Part shown: positions 9,099 through 18,994 of the stretch, in pieces | Position numbering within the stretch: the stretch's first letter is position 1 | Layout: each line of letters begins with the position of its first letter | From: Streptococcus sanguinis | GTDB lineage: Bacteria; Bacillota; Bacilli; Lactobacillales; Streptococcaceae | DNA: 64,000 bases | Direction: 5' to 3' | Assembly (NCBI GenBank): GCA_013378335.1 | Contig: CP040556.1 | Span: forward strand, 496,001-560,000 | The notes under the pieces: generated by a model | What the model was told of the DNA's origin: nothing | Databases searched by the model: none | Seen by the model: the letters and a program-made list of their open reading frames with translations, nothing else | Position numbers and translations under genes: made by a program

Positions 9099-9130
9099 AT
9101 CCCCAGTTTGAAAAGAGCTGGGGATTTTTA
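9099..9130 (+). terminator. Intrinsic terminator after the GNAT gene
   Basis: ATCCCCAG (9099-9106) pairs perfectly with CTGGGGAT (9118-9125), followed by five T. Confidence 0.85.
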
Positions 9131-9745: not shown

Positions 9746-10498
9746 ATGACTACTAACTACACCATTCGTCCCCTGACCTATAGCAACTTTACTCACCGTG
9801 AGTTTGAAAGTTTGATGACGGATTCTTGTCAAATCATCACGGAATTTGTCAAGGCAAATAAGGACGAAGATATGTATGGTACGCACTTGGAGCCCTTTGC
9901 GAGCAAGCTAGAAGAATTCCAGAAACAGCTAGCTAGCGTGGAAAAGAAACAAACCACAAGTCTGGCGGAGGTAGATAAGGAGCGGGACAATGCTCTGGTC
10001 GGACTCTTTACCCTACATAGGGGATTTGCTAAGATAAAGGAAGCGAAGTTCAAGGAAGCCCATGAGACGCTGGCTCCAGTCCTGACTAAGTACAAGGATA
10101 TCACCAAGCATAATAACGATGTCGCAACTGCTGAGATTAAGAGTCTCCTCAAAACCCTAAAGGAAGAGCCCTACAATGCGGCAGTAACTACGCTGGGACT
10201 CTCACCAGTGATTAGCGCAGTGACGACTGCACAGGAAGACTATGATAAGGCCGAAGCCCTAGCGCGTGCAGCCAAGTCCAGCAAGGAAGTCGGTAAGACC
10301 AAGCAGCTGCGCACGGAAATCTCCCGCACTTATGACCTCTTTATGCGCTATACCGCAGCCTCCGCAGAAGCCTATCCAGAGAAAGTCCACTTTGCCAAAC
10401 TCCTCAAGGATCTCAACATCCTCCGAGACAGCAAGCGACGCCTGGCCAGTCCAAATAAGAAAACTAAAACTGAACCAGCGCCAGAAGCAGCAGGATAA
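9746..10498 (+). CDS. DUF6261-like helical protein
   Basis: The 250-residue soluble protein is almost entirely predicted alpha-helical, with coiled-coil-like stretches at about 45-75 and 160-200 and a K/P/E-rich tail. The opening YTIRPLTYSNFTHREF and the general helical pattern resemble DUF6261 proteins, which I associate mainly with oral Bacteroidetes and a few oral streptococci; this comes from memory. The SD GGAGAGG precedes ATG 9746 and a TTGCAA/TATACT promoter lies just upstream. It is flanked by gene remnants and the defence module, and its GC content looks higher than theirs. The function is unknown. Confidence 0.7.
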   Translation: MTTNYTIRPLTYSNFTHREFESLMTDSCQIITEFVKANKDEDMYGTHLEPFASKLEEFQKQLASVEKKQTTSLAEVDKERDNALVGLFTLHRGFAKIKEAKFKEAHETLAPVLTKYKDITKHNNDVATAEIKSLLKTLKEEPYNAAVTTLGLSPVISAVTTAQEDYDKAEALARAAKSSKEVGKTKQLRTEISRTYDLFMRYTAASAEAYPEKVHFAKLLKDLNILRDSKRRLASPNKKTKTEPAPEAAG

Positions 10499-10537: not shown

Positions 10538-10591
10538 GTGTTTAATAGACATTGGGTAGGGAATGTGAAGGTGGAAGCCGACAAAAAAATA

Positions 10592-10659
10592 TTGGATTTT
10601 TGCATAAATACTTTATAGAATGAGGAGGAGTTGATATAATGATAGATGTAAAAAATTAA
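10592..10659 (+). promoter_or_regulatory. Upstream region of the defence module with a possible six-codon leader
   Basis: Two overlapping promoter readings exist: TTGGAT (10592-10597) with TAGAAT (10616-10621), or TTTATA (10612-10617) with TATAAT (10635-10640). The strong SD AGGAGG (10623-10628) serves no large gene. It precedes a six-codon frame, ATG 10639 to TAA 10657-10659 (MIDVKN). If the first promoter is used, this would be a translated leader before the nuclease gene. Confidence 0.35.
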
Positions 10660-10688
10660 AACTCTTTGATATGATAAAAGGATTAAAA

Positions 10689-11504
10689 ATGACCCTGTTA
10701 AAAAATATTTTTGAAAAAATTTCTTCCATTACCACTTCTGGAATAGAGGTTAAAAGTTTAAGTGAAGATGAAGTGGAAGTTATCGTTGCTGAAATTAACT
10801 CTTTAAATCCAAGTGAAAAAGATTTTATAAAAAATAAACTTGTAGAAATTTCAAAAGGAAGAAGCAGTTCCTACACTCCTAACATTATAGCTAAAAAGAT
10901 TTATGATAATCTTTTTCGTGATGATGGTACGCTGAAAGATTCAAGAATAATATCTGGTTTTGCTGCAGAATTTTTTTTGATATGTATTTTAATTGATAAT
11001 GGTTTTGAACAACAATTTTGCTACAAAAATTTAGAAGAAAATTCAGCTAAAAAAGGATTTGATGGGCTTTACCAAATAAATGAAGAAATATGGCTTGTAG
11101 AAAGCAAGTCTACTCAAGAGGGAGATAATATCTCGCACAAGACAACCATCAAACGGGCTTACGATGGAATAACTGATCAGTTAGCTGGGAAAACTAAAAA
11201 TGACCCTTGGGAGAATGCTGCTAATCATGCTAAATCCTTTAAATCTTCGGAATCTCTAATTCATAAGTTAGAACAATTAAGTATTGAATATACTAGAGAA
11301 AACTATAAAAAATTATCCGAATGTAATTTAATTATTGGTTCTACTGTAATTCATAAAAATACAGCTTTTGGAATCATTGATAGTAAAAAAATTGACGATT
11401 ATTTAGTCGGGCATCAAGTGAAAAATGAAAAGGTTGTGGCGATGAATCTAAGTGAACAAGATCTTTTTGTAGAGATTATGAAGGAGATTGCAAATGTCAA
11501 ATAA
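10689..11504 (+). CDS. HamA/AbpA-like nuclease (DUF1837-type), putative Hachiman component
   Basis: The 271-residue protein has a PD-(D/E)xK-like core: E94 in GFAAEFF, D125 in KKGFDGLYQ and E138-x-K140 in WLVESKST, followed by a conserved-looking helical stretch around RAYDGITDQL. This layout, with a helicase gene translated from an overlapping start, matches HamA (DUF1837) of Hachiman and AbpA of AbpAB. In those systems the helicase partner senses DNA and licenses nuclease activity. ATG 10689 is chosen because AAAAGGA (10674-10680) precedes it; ATG 10671 lacks an SD. The gene is clearly more AT-rich than its surroundings, a sign of transfer. The family assignment is by motif and context only. 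Confidence 0.65.
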   Translation: MTLLKNIFEKISSITTSGIEVKSLSEDEVEVIVAEINSLNPSEKDFIKNKLVEISKGRSSSYTPNIIAKKIYDNLFRDDGTLKDSRIISGFAAEFFLICILIDNGFEQQFCYKNLEENSAKKGFDGLYQINEEIWLVESKSTQEGDNISHKTTIKRAYDGITDQLAGKTKNDPWENAANHAKSFKSSESLIHKLEQLSIEYTRENYKKLSECNLIIGSTVIHKNTAFGIIDSKKIDDYLVGHQVKNEKVVAMNLSEQDLFVEIMKEIANVK

Positions 11505-14025
11505 CTTAGAGGGTGGGAAAAGTCTGCTGACTAGAATTAAAAATAATACATATGTTTCTAAGCATCTAATTGATCTACTTTATAAGAAACCAGATTTGTC
11601 ATTTAATGAAGCCGAGTTTCTTTTCTCTGTGGCATTATTATTAATTGAAGAATATCAAGAAACAATAGACCAAGATAAATATCTATTAATAGAATATGCT
11701 TATTTGATTATTGCTGTAACCTGTTTTAAAACAAATGACTTTAGGGCTTTATACGATTTTTCTGTAAATTATGGTTATTATCCAACTGCTAGAACAATTT
11801 TAGAGAGTGGGCTAATAAAAGATGAAGAGCTTACAATTAATCACCTTATCTCTGATTTGGAGATAGAAAAATTTGTAGATGAAAATAAAGTTAAAACATA
11901 TGAGCAAAACAAGGTATTTGAAGAAATACTAGACTCTAATTTTAAACAATTATCATTTATAGCTCCAACTTCATATGGAAAGAGCGAGCTAGTCTTTCAG
12001 CATATAAAAAAGAATAATGAATGCAATTTTATTGCTATTATAGTTCCAACGAAGGCTTTGATTGATCAAACGTTTCGAGCAGCCAAGAGGAATATTTCGG
12101 ATAGGAAAATTATTGTACATGACCAAAATTATGATTCAGAGAAAGATGCTAGAGTTTTAGCAATCGTTACTCAAGAACGTGGATTACGTCTTATTGAGGA
12201 AGGAATAGTATTTGACTTAATTTATATAGATGAGGCTCACGAATTACTTGATTTTAATTTTTCAAATTTATTTTCCAATCGGAGTTTGCTCTTATCTCGG
12301 TTTATAAAACTATCTATAATGAGAAAACCTGAATTGAAAATTATTTATCTATCTCCATCAATACAAAATTCAAAAAATTTATCGCTGAGAAATCAAGGAG
12401 CAATACAATCTTATAGAATTGAAAAAAATCTTAAGATACTAAAATTAAGATATTTAAACAGGAGTTGTGAAGAATATATTTATGATTTATTTTTTAATGA
12501 ATTTATTCCAACTGCTCAGATTGTTCCTTCTTCGTTTGACTATATAACAAAGGTGTCAATAAGTTTTAGAAAAAATTTACACTTTTTATATCGTCCTAGG
12601 ATGATTGAGAATTATACTGAAAAATTATATTCCGCATTACCTGAGGAAAGTATACCTGATGAAATTGAGGATTTACAACGAGAGCTTGCAACGATTATTC
12701 ACCCTAAATTTAAACTCATAAAATATCTTTCAAAAGGAATTGTTTATATGCATGGGCGCATGCCGTTGTTGATTAGAAATTATCTTTTGAAATTTATTAG
12801 AGAATCTGATTTTTTACGAAATTTTGTTGCTAATGCTGTTGTTTTGGCTGGAATGAACTTACCTATAGATAATTTAATTTATATTTCAGGTTTTAAAAGT
12901 ATCAGTGATTTGAATAATCTAATTGGGAGAGTCAATCGATTAAATGAGATTTTTAAAGATGGTGATTCCCTTTCAAGACTTTTTATCCCTGTTCATTTTG
13001 TTGATATAGAAGAATATCCTCAATATTCAGGAACTAAAAATAGCTTGAAGACTAAGATAGAGCAACTTAGAGGGCGCCACTTAGAGGATGTAAAAAATCC
13101 ACTATTAGAAGAATATAATAAAACAAAGAATGCCGAAAAAGTAACAGAAATCAGAAGTTTAGAAAATCAAGTCATTGAAAATTATAATAATCCAGATTTT
13201 TTTACCCGTTTAACTAAAGCAGGTGCTCAACAGATTTTGAATTACACTGCAGACGGGTTGCAGCAACTGGAAAATATTTTGATGAAAGAAGAAAAGATTA
13301 TTGGAACAGAGAATTTGATCGAATTAATTTTAAATAAGATAAAGAAAGTGTTTTTTGACAGTTTTTTACTTTCTAATATTTTTTTGAATTCTAGTTTAGA
13401 AGTTGATACTAATCTGTTTAACCCAGGAAATAATGTTAAACGTTTAAGATACGATGCAACAATTGATTATTATAGGAGGTTTCTGGAATTTTCTTTTAAT
13501 GGCTTGAATGAAAGAATTGAAGATCTATATAAATATTGGACTGAAGACATACTGGGAAATAGCAGTCGAAAAGATTTAAATTATTATGTTTATGTTGGAC
13601 GTCAATTTGGTGAAGTTGCATATTATGAAACAGAAGCACATCAAGGGCAAAAAGTATATGTAGATTTACGTACACATAAGTATGATGAGGACTATTTATA
13701 TAACTTAGCTGTAATTAAAATCCAAACTGATGAAGATTTTATTAATCACGAGATTACGTTATTGCTTAGCACTCTCAAAGAGTTTGAAATTATAACAGAA
13801 AATCAGTTTAATTATTTTTTGTATGGCACTTTTGATAAAAAGGAAATTGAAGTATTAAGATTAGGTATCAGTAGAAATATTTACCAATCTTTAAAAGCTA
13901 ATAATCAAATTGAGAATATAGGTTTTGATGAATTTGGTAATACATATGCTAATGAGCACTTAAAGAGTTATATTGATAAAAAAACAGGAATTGAAAAATT
14001 TGAATTGGAACAATTTTTCCTTTGA
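11494..14025 (+). CDS. HamB/AbpB-like DEAH-box helicase, putative Hachiman component
   Basis: The 843-residue protein is an SF2 helicase. Walker A is APTSYGKS (157-164), motif Ia follows as VPTKALIDQ, the DEAH box is 246-249, YLSPS may be motif III, and motif VI reads NLIGRVNRL with G478 and R482. The TSYGKS form of Walker A and the single-chain size fit Hachiman HamB. The C-terminal 350 residues have no recognised domain. ATG 11494 follows AAGGAG (11481-11486) with a 7-base spacer and overlaps the nuclease stop by 11 bases, so the pair is translationally coupled. Composition is strongly AT-rich. An unrelated DNA-repair role is the main alternative. Confidence 0.7.
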   Translation: MSNNLEGGKSLLTRIKNNTYVSKHLIDLLYKKPDLSFNEAEFLFSVALLLIEEYQETIDQDKYLLIEYAYLIIAVTCFKTNDFRALYDFSVNYGYYPTARTILESGLIKDEELTINHLISDLEIEKFVDENKVKTYEQNKVFEEILDSNFKQLSFIAPTSYGKSELVFQHIKKNNECNFIAIIVPTKALIDQTFRAAKRNISDRKIIVHDQNYDSEKDARVLAIVTQERGLRLIEEGIVFDLIYIDEAHELLDFNFSNLFSNRSLLLSRFIKLSIMRKPELKIIYLSPSIQNSKNLSLRNQGAIQSYRIEKNLKILKLRYLNRSCEEYIYDLFFNEFIPTAQIVPSSFDYITKVSISFRKNLHFLYRPRMIENYTEKLYSALPEESIPDEIEDLQRELATIIHPKFKLIKYLSKGIVYMHGRMPLLIRNYLLKFIRESDFLRNFVANAVVLAGMNLPIDNLIYISGFKSISDLNNLIGRVNRLNEIFKDGDSLSRLFIPVHFVDIEEYPQYSGTKNSLKTKIEQLRGRHLEDVKNPLLEEYNKTKNAEKVTEIRSLENQVIENYNNPDFFTRLTKAGAQQILNYTADGLQQLENILMKEEKIIGTENLIELILNKIKKVFFDSFLLSNIFLNSSLEVDTNLFNPGNNVKRLRYDATIDYYRRFLEFSFNGLNERIEDLYKYWTEDILGNSSRKDLNYYVYVGRQFGEVAYYETEAHQGQKVYVDLRTHKYDEDYLYNLAVIKIQTDEDFINHEITLLLSTLKEFEIITENQFNYFLYGTFDKKEIEVLRLGISRNIYQSLKANNQIENIGFDEFGNTYANEHLKSYIDKKTGIEKFELEQFFL

Positions 14026-14128
14026 TTTTTTAGAGAGTAAGAGGATACATTAACAAAATACGAAAGATCAAGAATTAGATTTAAAGAATTTAGTTCTTTT
14101 TGGAAAACAATAGAATTATCCAATTTAG

Positions 14129-14215
14129 GCTTTAACTGTAGGAGACCAGCTCAGAGGCACAACGCCTGAAGCTCAGGAGGAACTGGAGAAGTTTTTGGCT
14201 GAGTTTGAGAAATAA
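14129..14215 (+). pseudogene. C-terminal gene fragment
   Basis: A 28-codon in-frame tail (LTVGDQLRGTTPEAQEELEK... to TAA 14213-14215) has no start and a stop just upstream. Its GC content is higher than that of the helicase gene before it, so it may be the truncated end of a host gene at the island boundary. It weakly resembles the tail fragment at 42471-42617 (TVG-x-x...SPE pattern). The rest of 14026-14473 holds the terminator below and the subtilase upstream region. Confidence 0.35.
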
Positions 14216-14473: not shown

Positions 14474-17400
14474 ATGCAAAGACAACGTTTTTCACTCCGT
14501 AAATACAAGTTCGGTCTGGCTTCTGTTCTGTTGGGAACTGCTCTGGTTTTTGGTGCGGGACAGGCTCAGGCAGATGAGCAGGCGACCACTAGTTCGTCAG
14601 GGCAAGTTCAGCCGACTACTGCTGTGGTATCAGCGACTGAGTCTGCTTCTCAAGCAGTAACACCTGAGAGTCAGCCGGCAACTCAAGCCCCTGTGGAGAA
14701 AGCAACGCCAGCTTCTTCTGAATCGGCTACTTCAAGTACAGATCAGGCTAGTCAGCCTTCTAAGACAGAGGCTAAGGAAGCATCTGCAACTCCTGTAGAG
14801 AAAGGAGCGACTTCTTCATCAGAAGAGGCTTCTTCAAGTGCTGAGAAGGTAACTCAGCCATCTGCCACAGAGACCAAGTCAACAGTTCAGGCTAACCCAA
14901 CTGTAGAGTCTCCGGCAGCCGAAAACTCAGAAAAGCCTGCTGCTAATCCTGATTCAGTAGCAGAGTCACCAACTTCTCGCGATGCTAAGCCAAGCAGCAT
15001 CAGCACCAATGAGATTATCAAGGTACCTCAGACTTGGTCTCAGGGGTATAAAGGTCAAGGCCGAGTAGTAGCGATTATTGACTCGGGCTTGGATGTCCAT
15101 CATGAAGTTCTGCGAATTTCAGATCCTTCCAAGGCCAAGTATCAGACAGAGGCAGCTCTGGAAGAGGCTAAGAAGAAGGCTGGTATTGACTACGGGAAGT
15201 GGTACAACAGCAAGGTTGTCTATGCCTATAACTATATCGACGGTGATGACAATATCAAAGAAAAGAACAGTTATTCGCATGGTATGCACGTAACAGGGAT
15301 TTCAGTGGGAAATCCCAACAAGAAAGCTCCTAATGATGAGTATGTCTACGGTGTTGCGCCAGAAGCACAAGTTATGTTTATGCGGGTCTTTTCTGACCGT
15401 CAGCGCACAACTAGCGACGCTATCTATATTAAGGCCATTGATGATGCAGTAGCTTTGGGAGCTGATACCATCAATATGAGTCTGGGCTCAGCAACAGGGT
15501 CTACAGTTGATGTCAGCCCTAGTCTGCAGGCGGCTATTGAGCGCGCTCGGGCCAAGGGGGTGAGTGTGATCATTGCAGCGGGTAATGACAACACTTTCGG
15601 AAGTGAATACTCTAAACCGCTGGTTGAAAATCCAGACTATGGTCTAGTTGGCAGTCCTTCAACAGTAGAAAGCTCTATCTCAGTCGCTTCTGTCAATAAT
15701 ACTGTCCTGACAGAGGAAGTCATGGAAGTGCGTGGTCTGGAAAAGAATGATAAGCTTTTGAACGGTCATTTCAGCTATTCCATGGGTGAGACAAATGCAA
15801 CCTTTGAAAAGGGCAAGGAATATGAGTATGTCCATGTTGGTCTTGGCCGTGAAGAGGACTTTGCTGGTAAGGATTTGACAGGGAAGCTGGCTCTTATCCA
15901 GCGTGGTTCCTTTACCTTTGCTGAAAAGGTTAGAAATGCCATCAGCCATGGTGCTGTTGGTGCTCTGATCTATAATAACGTCGACGGAGCTAACCTAACG
16001 ATGAGCCTGGACAGTGAATCTAAAAAGGTTCCATCAGCCTTTATCAGTAAGGAATATGGAGAGGCTTTGGCAGCTGGTAATTACAAGGTAGTCTTTAATG
16101 GTCTTAAGGTCAATCGGCCGCATCCAGGAGCTGGTAGTCTGTCTGACTTCTCTAGTTGGGGTGTAACGACAGATGGCTTGCTCAAGCCAGATGTGACAGC
16201 ACCAGGTGGCGATATTTACTCTTCACTTAATGACAATACCTATGGCTCTATGAAGGGAACCAGTATGGCTACGCCTCATGTGGCTGGTGTAGCGGCTCTT
16301 GTCAAGGAATATCTCCTTCAGCACTATCCAGAACTGACGCCTGCCCAGAATGCAGATTTAGTCAAAGCGCTCATTATGTCAACAGCTAAGCTGCATGTCA
16401 ACAAGGAAACAGGTGCCTATACCTCTCCGCGTCAGCAGGGTGCTGGTATCGTAGATACGGCAGCGGCTATTTCTACCGGCCTCTATGTGACAGGGGATAA
16501 CCAATATCCTAGTGTTTCCTTGGGCAATGTCCAAGACAGCTTCACTTTTGATGTTACGGTTCATAATATCACTGATAAGGACCGGACGCTGAAGATGATT
16601 GTCAATACCAACACGGATGCAGTCAAGGATGGCTACTTTACCCTGACACCGCGCAAACTAACCGAAACGGTCTGGCCAGAAGTTACTGTCAAGGCTCACA
16701 GCAGCCAGAAAGTGACGGTCAAGGTAAATACTGCTAAGTTTGCGGAAGAGTTGATCAAACAGATGCCGAACGGCTATTTCCTAGAAGGTTTTGTCCGTTT
16801 TGTCGATCCAGCGGATGACGGCGATGTTGTTAGTCTGCCATTCATGGGCTTCCGTGGGCAATTTCAAGATCTTCCAGCTGTAGAAAGACCAATCTATGAT
16901 CTGGTCCAAGAAGGCAAGTCAGGCTTCTATTACCCAGTACCAGAGGATAAGAGTATCCTGTCTGATGACAATGTCTCTTCGCTTGTGACGGAATCCAATG
17001 ACAAGCTCTATTCGACCGGTCGAACAGCTGCTCGCAGCTCAATTGTACTGGGAACTGCAGAAAATGCGGATGGTAAGCATGTGCTGCAGCTGGGAGCAGA
17101 TGGCAAGATTCGTCTGGCCTTCTCACCTAATGGAGATGGCAATCAGGACAGCATCCAGTATCGGACAGTTCTCTATCGCAATATCAATAATCTGACAGCT
17201 AGTGTCTATACGGCAGATGATAAGGACTATCGCTTCCCAATCTGGCAGAGCAGCACGATTAAAGAAGGCCGCAAGAACTATTATAGTGGTCAGTCAGACA
17301 ATCCTAAGTCCTACCTACTAGAAGATACATACTGGGATGGTCGTGACAGCAAGGGTGAGAAGCTGGAGGATGGCCTCTATACCTATGTGGTTCGCTATAC

Positions 17401-18994
17401 ACCAGATGTACCAGGTGCTAAAGAGCAGCAGATTACCTTTAAGCTACAGATCGATACCCAGAAGCCTTTGATTAGCTCAGGCTATATCAGTACCAAGGAT
17501 GGTGCGGAAACCTTTACGGCTCGCAAGCCAAAAGATGTTGGAAACGGCGGTATTTTGAGAGAACAGGTCTTCTATCTGCAAGCAGATGAAAAAGGGAAAG
17601 AGACCTATAAAGCTGTGGATGATTTTGGCATTGAGCGTGATTACGAGCGTCGGGTTTACATCTCAGCCAATGCGGATGGCAGCTACACCTTGCCAAAAGG
17701 AGTGGACAAGTCTAAGATTTTCTATGTGGTAGAGGACTATGCGGGCAACCGTGATGCCATAGCTCTGTCAGAACTAGTCAGTGCTGAAAATGATGGGCGC
17801 ATCCGTGTCGCTCTGGTAGATGTTAATACGCATCAAGATGTATCGTCGACCTTTGTCTATCGAATCAGGGATAGCAAGGGCAAGTATGTCGAACTGGACA
17901 AGGGCAAGCAAATCAATGCTCTGCCGTTTGGACGCTACACAGCTGAGATCTTTACTTATGATAAGGATGAGCTTCGTTTCTACAGCGCTCTGACTCAGGA
18001 GTTTGAGCTGACAGCCCAAGATAGCTTTAAGACGATTGAGTTTCTAGTCAAGAAGCTAGTCTTTGCACCGGTCAGCGTTGCCTTTGATCAAGCTGTTCCG
18101 AAGAATACTCAAGTGGTTCTCAAGAATAACAATGGCGATGCCTATACGCTTCCAGCAGAACTGTTTGGCAAGCATGCCTTTGGAAGATCTGTAGCAGCTG
18201 GATTCTACTCTGTCTTTGTCAACCTACCGACTGGCTACGAGCTCTGGGAAACTGAGCCGACTGTTGAGGTCAAAGAGGGCAAGAATAACCTGCTCAAGCT
18301 GGGAGTTATCGTCAAGTCAGGCTTGCTGGCGGCTGTCAATCAGCAGTCTAGTCTGGTCGGCACTGCTCAGTATTACAATGCTTCTGCAGCGAAGCGCACA
18401 GCCTACGACCAAGCATATCAGGCAGCCAAGGAAGCTTTGACAAGTAAACTTACTCAAGCGCAAGTTGATGCCGTAAGAGCAAAACTAGAAACAGCATCTG
18501 CTAATCTAGACGGCAAGGACTCTGACCTTGCTGCGGTTAAAGCAGCTGTGGAGGCTTATGCAGCTACCACTAAGACAGGTGCTTATGCCAATGCTAAGGA
18601 TAGAACTCGTCGCGCTTATGACAAGGCCTTCCAAGCAGTGGCCCTGCTCTTGGTGCAGGACAAGGTGACCCAGGAGCAAATTGATACTGCCCTAGCTCAG
18701 CTGACTACAGCAGAGAAGAAGCTAGATGGCAAGGCGACGAACTTTACTAATCTCAAGAAGCTAGTCGATGATGAAGTGCATTACCAAGCCATCAGCAATA
18801 AGTTTATCTATGCGACTGATGCGGTGAAGGCGGCTTATCTAGAGGCTTATGCACAGGCTAAGGAAGTTTTGGCTAATCCAGGTGCCAGCCAGGAAGATGT
18901 CAAAGAAGCCATCGCCAATCTCAGAGCAGCCAAGAGAAAACTTGATGGCAGAAAGCCAAGAGTTGTGAGACCGAAAAAACCTAAACAAGTCTAA
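14474..18994 (+). CDS. Cell-surface subtilisin-like serine protease (C5a peptidase-like)
   Basis: This 1506-residue secreted protease starts with a YSIRK-type signal (FSLRKYKFGLASVLLG, residues 6-21; cleavage likely after AQA near 33). A Ser/Thr/Ala/Pro-rich region follows (35-170), then an S8 catalytic domain with D203 (IIDSGLD), H269 (SHGMH) and S597 (GTSMATPH), split by a PA domain around 440-540. Fn3-like and beta-rich C5a-peptidase-type domains follow to about 1290, then three FIVAR-like helical repeats of about 65 residues (from about 1295), each ending near LDGK/LDGR. The C-terminus is basic (RVVRPKKPKQV) with no LPXTG motif or membrane anchor. The SD AAGGAG precedes ATG 14474. Host complement factor or surface-protein processing is inferred from the family. 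Confidence 0.92.
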   Translation: MQRQRFSLRKYKFGLASVLLGTALVFGAGQAQADEQATTSSSGQVQPTTAVVSATESASQAVTPESQPATQAPVEKATPASSESATSSTDQASQPSKTEAKEASATPVEKGATSSSEEASSSAEKVTQPSATETKSTVQANPTVESPAAENSEKPAANPDSVAESPTSRDAKPSSISTNEIIKVPQTWSQGYKGQGRVVAIIDSGLDVHHEVLRISDPSKAKYQTEAALEEAKKKAGIDYGKWYNSKVVYAYNYIDGDDNIKEKNSYSHGMHVTGISVGNPNKKAPNDEYVYGVAPEAQVMFMRVFSDRQRTTSDAIYIKAIDDAVALGADTINMSLGSATGSTVDVSPSLQAAIERARAKGVSVIIAAGNDNTFGSEYSKPLVENPDYGLVGSPSTVESSISVASVNNTVLTEEVMEVRGLEKNDKLLNGHFSYSMGETNATFEKGKEYEYVHVGLGREEDFAGKDLTGKLALIQRGSFTFAEKVRNAISHGAVGALIYNNVDGANLTMSLDSESKKVPSAFISKEYGEALAAGNYKVVFNGLKVNRPHPGAGSLSDFSSWGVTTDGLLKPDVTAPGGDIYSSLNDNTYGSMKGTSMATPHVAGVAALVKEYLLQHYPELTPAQNADLVKALIMSTAKLHVNKETGAYTSPRQQGAGIVDTAAAISTGLYVTGDNQYPSVSLGNVQDSFTFDVTVHNITDKDRTLKMIVNTNTDAVKDGYFTLTPRKLTETVWPEVTVKAHSSQKVTVKVNTAKFAEELIKQMPNGYFLEGFVRFVDPADDGDVVSLPFMGFRGQFQDLPAVERPIYDLVQEGKSGFYYPVPEDKSILSDDNVSSLVTESNDKLYSTGRTAARSSIVLGTAENADGKHVLQLGADGKIRLAFSPNGDGNQDSIQYRTVLYRNINNLTASVYTADDKDYRFPIWQSSTIKEGRKNYYSGQSDNPKSYLLEDTYWDGRDSKGEKLEDGLYTYVVRYTPDVPGAKEQQITFKLQIDTQKPLISSGYISTKDGAETFTARKPKDVGNGGILREQVFYLQADEKGKETYKAVDDFGIERDYERRVYISANADGSYTLPKGVDKSKIFYVVEDYAGNRDAIALSELVSAENDGRIRVALVDVNTHQDVSSTFVYRIRDSKGKYVELDKGKQINALPFGRYTAEIFTYDKDELRFYSALTQEFELTAQDSFKTIEFLVKKLVFAPVSVAFDQAVPKNTQVVLKNNNGDAYTLPAELFGKHAFGRSVAAGFYSVFVNLPTGYELWETEPTVEVKEGKNNLLKLGVIVKSGLLAAVNQQSSLVGTAQYYNASAAKRTAYDQAYQAAKEALTSKLTQAQVDAVRAKLETASANLDGKDSDLAAVKAAVEAYAATTKTGAYANAKDRTRRAYDKAFQAVALLLVQDKVTQEQIDTALAQLTTAEKKLDGKATNFTNLKKLVDDEVHYQAISNKFIYATDAVKAAYLEAYAQAKEVLANPGASQEDVKEAIANLRAAKRKLDGRKPRVVRPKKPKQV

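Follow-up and report, generated by a model that had tools for sequence, protein, structure and literature searches.

We analyzed a 64,000-nucleotide stretch of the Streptococcus sanguinis genome (contig CP040556.1, positions 496,001 to 560,000 of the forward strand; hereafter the window) and found that two overlapping genes within it, encoding a nuclease and a superfamily 2 (SF2) helicase, very probably constitute a strongly diverged two-gene Hachiman (HamAB) anti-phage system, with a nuclease too divergent to be recognised by the HamA models of Pfam and PADLOC. Support for this assignment comes from the structure of the gene pair, intact active-site residues, the relation of both proteins to HamA and HamB, and a genomic site at which relatives carry other defence-type genes. 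Membership in the Hachiman family is very probable on the strength of a chain of sequence homology, a predicted fold and phylogenetic trees, the test by HamA family model alone having failed. An earlier note on this DNA had proposed a diverged Hachiman nuclease-helicase pair, a proposal that the homology chain, fold and trees support.

The gene pair is compact, intact and AT-rich

The open reading frames (ORFs) of the window place a 271-residue protein ahead of an 843-residue one with an overlap of 11 bases (11494-11504), as previously described; the start given for the locus, position 10592, was too early, as the coding part begins at 10689. Because ribosome-binding sequences stand ahead of ATG 10689 (AAAAGGA) and ATG 11494 (AAGGAG), we favour these starts, which yield the 271- and 843-residue products. 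Nuclease residues are numbered below in the 277-residue reading, which adds 6 to the 271-residue numbering (E94 = E100, D125 = D131, E138 = E144, K140 = K146). The reported excess of AT over neighbouring genes is real: the GC contents of the nuclease (0.296) and helicase (0.283) genes are the two lowest among the 44 non-overlapping ORFs in the window that reach 150 aa, the remaining 42 having a mean of 0.449 (standard deviation 0.039, minimum 0.334). A possible extended -10 promoter precedes the pair (Table 1). As such sites are not enriched in the window (22 found, 23.5 expected from shuffles), it is the place of this candidate just upstream of the pair that speaks for it.

The nuclease is related to HamA over its full length

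The four residues that the earlier note had singled out as a nuclease core are at the positions it gave, and all of them (E100, D131, E144 and K146) are invariant in an 11-sequence alignment (A4). D131, E144 and K146 have their counterpart in the D-E(x)K motif of HamA (PMC12278908), so the nuclease possesses this catalytic motif. The residue before ExK differs among the groups we aligned. Canonical HamA rows (A6) read GESK or GEAK (L010 reads GASQ), nucleases of the window group (A5) read VESK, LESK or MESK, and those of a second group, group 2 (A7), read TEVK, SEVK, AEVK, TESK or IESK. The window group also has a conserved N-x-PWxNA block that was not seen in the canonical set.

A homology chain connects the nuclease to HamA through group 2. 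Comparison of profiles A5 and A7 scored 99.7% (3.3e-25), and the PF08878 cut-off was passed by six of the seven scanned group 2 nucleases (L014, L015, L023, L024, L025 and L029). Both the alignments and the profile comparison relate the window nuclease to group 2 over its full length, and the earlier view that its similarity was limited to the core does not hold. The predicted structure of the nuclease has the HamA fold: a second structural aligner ranked HamA first, with HamA structures well above other nucleases, at 9% identity to 8vx9_A in the structural alignment. As homology chain and fold both point to HamA, we suggest that the HamA family models do not reach this protein. We also looked for an assignment outside DUF1837, the HamA family, and no other nuclease family in Pfam, PADLOC or NCBIfam took the nuclease. 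A PDB profile search with A4 returned nothing relevant.

The helicase resembles HamB, including a predicted N-terminal bundle

The nuclease is adjoined by a HamB-family helicase, in which the motifs APTSYGKS, DEAH and GRVNR are present as reported. HamB has an N-terminal alpha-helical domain (NAH) that binds HamA (PMC12278908); in the window helicase this domain is present as a predicted fold of residues 13-127. The best structural match of the helicase model, 8zue_B, is aligned from residue 14. The 50 VIA-align rows listed for this model include none of the ECOR HamB chains, an absence that excludes nothing. Pfam recognised no domain in the approximately 350 C-terminal residues, as had been stated, but this region aligns with other helicases of this kind and with 8zue_B and is not an unknown addition.

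When Foldseek matches of the helicase model are ranked by E-value, Hel308 and Pol theta helicase domains come above 8zue_B (rank 7) and 8vxa_A (rank 9), as would be expected if a Hel308-like helicase and a nuclease formed a housekeeping DNA-repair pair. We consider this exceedingly improbable. Among the rows listed, those of Hel308 and Pol theta begin at helicase residues 124-129, whereas 8zue_B also covers the N-terminal bundle. Fixed conservation with a housekeeping character was looked for, and the helicase is instead sporadic, occurring in 6 of 284 same-genus genomes (its own included) at three kinds of sites, with defence-type genes in place of the pair in siblings.

The pair belongs to a lineage found in three phyla

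We placed both proteins in trees of 23 HamB rows and 22 HamA rows, each with 10 rows of the window group. This group formed a single clade in the HamB tree (support 100/99) and in the HamA tree (98/96). In the HamA tree, group 2 (L014, L015 and L023-L029) formed a clade of its own (96/87); its support in the HamB tree was weak (78/75). Left out as broken or cut were G189, L009, L013, the L004 nuclease, the L024 and L029 helicases, and the L008, L026 and L028 nucleases; L010, L012/L016 and L088-L090 were also left out. The canonical outgroup rows include one very long branch (L084), flagged by the tree tool.

Nearly all loci in the trees were collected via the helicase, so that the pairing of nuclease and helicase is partly built into the sample. 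The one locus found by the nuclease profile alone, G676, encodes a helicase that begins 6 bp after the nuclease stop and is 39% identical to that of the window over 482 aligned positions. Profile A5 found relatives in 2 of 348 genomes of the phylum (its own and G676) and in 1 of 348 of the class sample (its own). The helicase scan of genome contigs returned at least 591 stretches and at least 16 loci, and a single-sequence nuclease scan of genome contigs confirmed none of 36 stretches. By alignments A5 and A8 (helicases), the lineage spans the genus of the window, Clostridium, Bacillus, Gastranaerophilales and Vibrionaceae, in three phyla. In viral contigs, A5 gave no confirmed relative (32 pattern matches), and A8 found 3 of 152 (L088-L090), which are HamAB-like pairs whose upstream nucleases are group 2-like by motif only. 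No nuclease match was found by tblastn in plasmids and phages; 15 plasmid records carry distant helicases. In the excerpts returned by a search of open-licence papers, no Hachiman system was named in S. sanguinis, nor any such HamA lineage.

Several results weigh against the Hachiman assignment. The nuclease matched neither PF08878 nor the PADLOC or NCBIfam HamA models and thus is not a HamA (DUF1837) protein by family model, and a six-frame PF08878 search of its own genome found nothing. Among the intermediates, L027 had no PF08878 match, and group 2 nucleases scored 32% against the canonical HamA profile. Foldseek found nothing below 1e-3 for the predicted nuclease structure, Val stands where D-GExK has Gly, and the Foldseek order of the helicase model, given above, belongs on the same side. 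Lastly, frames are broken in relatives: the nuclease in G086, the helicase in G189 and both genes in G470; a Staphylococcus aureus record also has a broken pair.

The nuclease results in particular could be accounted for if an unrelated PD-(D/E)xK nuclease had replaced HamA beside a true HamB. No HamA model matches the nuclease, direct hhalign of A5 to canonical A6 is weak (2%), and L022, one of its relatives, matches CARF-PDDEXK weakly (2e-4). Such a swap is nevertheless very unlikely given the full-length homology via intermediates and the wide lead of HamA over other nuclease structures; a recent swap would also not give one clade in each tree.

The S. aureus record just mentioned (L009:3148-6347; 18 kb, linear) has its broken HamAB-like pair directly after rlmH. 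This is the gene where staphylococcal cassette chromosome (SCC) elements insert.

The pair occupies a variable defence site with restriction-gene remnants

Window positions 10544-14145, ahead of a gene for an S8 peptidase, are a variable defence site. In siblings, the left flank is kept to 10543 (G195 and G194) or 10640 (G189) and the right flank from 14146 (G195), 14147 (G192), 14144 (G193) or 14206 (G194), at 90-94% identity over the longer aligned blocks. G192 is also without the DUF6261 gene, its left match stopping at 9127. Site contents were read for four relatives (G192-G195); G190 and G189 stop at contig ends there. In place of the pair, G194 has an AbiH-family gene (8.1e-24); G193 has HerA and DUF4297, a nonspecific endonuclease, a HAD-family gene and others; G195 has a partial PDC-S71 match; and G192 has GIY-YIG and a Schlafen-group helicase.

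The flanking gene fragments described in the earlier note exist on the 3' side, where the ends of hsdS and hsdM adjoin the pair; on the 5' side the DUF6261 gene is open. The DNA of G101 that matches 14030-14142 lies just past its hamB and runs into hsdS (identified by PF01420), and a longer hsdM remnant in G192 matches PF02384 (1.5e-13). G101 and G130 have hsdR on one side of the pair and hsdS on the other, followed further out by hsdM. The simplest history would be that an hsdR-hamAB-hsdS-hsdM operon stood at this site and that its restriction genes have since been deleted.

These scars, together with the broken relatives, are what one might see if the pair were a decaying Hachiman remnant that no longer works. 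We regard this as improbable, as both frames are open, neither the catalytic residues nor the helicase motifs are damaged, and ribosome-binding sequences precede both ATGs. As hsdR and hsdS enclose the pair in two relatives and, judging by the scar, once did so in the window, we also considered a separate Hachiman lineage working in tandem with restriction-modification, in which DNA ends made by restriction would be the alarm and the cell would be killed when restriction alone is losing. We consider this reading unlikely.

A second such site lies downstream of valS, with canonical HamAB in G024 and diverged HamAB in G086, G224 and G189 (loci L082, L083, L084 and L007). The upstream gene was identified by Val_tRNA-synt_C in G086 and G224; in G189 the gene ahead reads the same. 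Downstream of the G224 pair come a C5 cytosine methylase and a match to a type II restriction enzyme. A mobile element bounded by repeats was considered for the window and rejected: between 9000 and 15000 there are only short imperfect repeat pairs, none framing the insert. By ARAGORN, the window contains no tRNA. The S8 peptidase ends ...RPKKPKQV, and three frames read between 18901 and 19300 showed no LPXTG-type anchor.

Table 1. Features of the nuclease-helicase locus and its flanks (window coordinates).
Feature	Coordinates	Strand	Evidence or remarks
hamA-like nuclease gene	10689..11504	+	271 aa from ATG 10689; ORF open from 10671, 277 codons
Conserved E100 codon (E94 in 271-aa numbering)	10968..10970	+	invariant in alignments A3 and A4
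D131...E144-x-K146, D-ExK active-site core (D125/E138/K140 in 271-aa numbering)	11061..11108	+	invariant in A3 and A4
hamB-like SF2 helicase gene	11494..14025	+	843 aa from ATG 11494; ORF open from TTG 11488, 845 codons
Predicted N-terminal alpha-helical bundle, residues 13-127	11524..11868	+	predicted structure; place of the HamA-binding NAH of HamB
Walker A APTSYGKS (residue 159)	11962..11985	+	A159, P160, T161, S162, G164, K165 invariant in A8
DEAH box (residue 248)	12229..12240	+	invariant in A8
Helicase motif VI GRVNR (residue 480)	12925..12939	+	G480, R481, V482, R484 invariant in A8
Possible extended -10 promoter (TTTATA, 17 nt, TATAAT with TG)	10612..10640	+	pattern and position
Left flanking gene of variable site (DUF6261)	9746..10498	+	PF19775, 5.2e-37; flank conserved in several siblings
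hsdS 5'-end remnant (start approximate)	14051..14142	+	73% over 114 bp (14030-14142) to G101 DNA
hsdM 3'-end remnant	14146..14215	+	95-96% identity with the G195 and G192 counterparts
Right flanking gene of variable site (YSIRK-signal S8 peptidase)	14474..18994	+	PF00082, PF04650; flank conserved in several siblings

Proposed mechanism and implications

In E. coli Hachiman, HamB restrains HamA on intact DNA; damaged DNA activates HamA, and both phage and host DNA are lost (PMC12278908). As the active-site residues are conserved, the fold is predicted and the partner is present, a mechanism of this type is likely for the window pair. By this analogy, HamB would hold the nuclease on its N-terminal helical bundle while patrolling intact DNA. 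Phage replication would then produce damaged DNA or a free single-stranded end, setting off ATP-driven movement of HamB, which would activate the metal-dependent D131/E144/K146 nuclease, and the activated enzyme would degrade phage and host DNA in the cell, leading to abortive infection. Complex formation, trigger, DNA degradation and phage defence are thus what we infer for the pair from the E. coli system.

As far as sequence and predicted structure tell, the pair adds a diverged member to the known Hachiman family, which is useful for annotation. PADLOC calls a system only if its required genes are present and co-localised (PMC8565338), so that a HamA missed by its models can leave a whole Hachiman system hidden. 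Alignments A5 and A8 outline a lineage that could be added to such models. With the pair set inside restriction operons in relatives and beside restriction scars in the window, a coupling of Hachiman to restriction can be put to the test; a restriction-coupled lineage, if true, would readily go unnoticed, since the HamA models miss its nuclease.

Comparison with known systems

Several variants of the Hachiman theme do not fit the window pair. Type II Hachiman is defined by a HamC (DUF3223) gene beside hamAB (PMC8565338), and the neighbours scanned here were GNAT and DUF6261 genes upstream and the S8 peptidase gene downstream. In HamMAB, a trypsin-like protease is fused to a HamA that has lost its catalytic motif, given for canonical HamA as D-GExK, and the partner nuclease is HamM (PMC12799240); the window protein has no protease match in its 277 aa and an intact D-ExK.

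The earlier note had also likened the pair to AbpAB (PDB 8zue), where the nuclease would be an N-terminal Cap4-like domain and the HamA domain inactive. Gene order is the same, and 8zue, named AbpB, is among the top matches for both proteins. AbpA, however, is 538 aa long, residues 5-215 forming a Cap4 domain (PMC10732053), and its HamA catalytic residues are inactive (PMC12278908), whereas the window protein is 271-277 aa long, has no Cap4 match in Pfam and keeps the catalytic residues. It is therefore extremely unlikely to be an AbpA, and the likeness is to HamA and HamB instead.

Relative to E. coli-type Hachiman (PDB 8vx9/8vxy), the window nuclease is 9% identical to 8vx9_A, is missed by the Pfam and PADLOC HamA models, has Val rather than Gly before ExK, and adds the N-x-PWxNA block. 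Group 2 pairs share gene order and full-length homology of both nuclease and helicase with the window pair, but, unlike the window nuclease, most of their scanned nucleases pass the PF08878 cut-off. Two Hachiman homologs tested in Streptococcus thermophilus are only 15% (HamA) and 17% (HamB) identical, and both protect (PMC12322248), so the divergence of the window pair is compatible with function. In that species a Hachiman shares its island with a type II restriction-modification system (PMC12322248), a setting that resembles that of the G224 pair.
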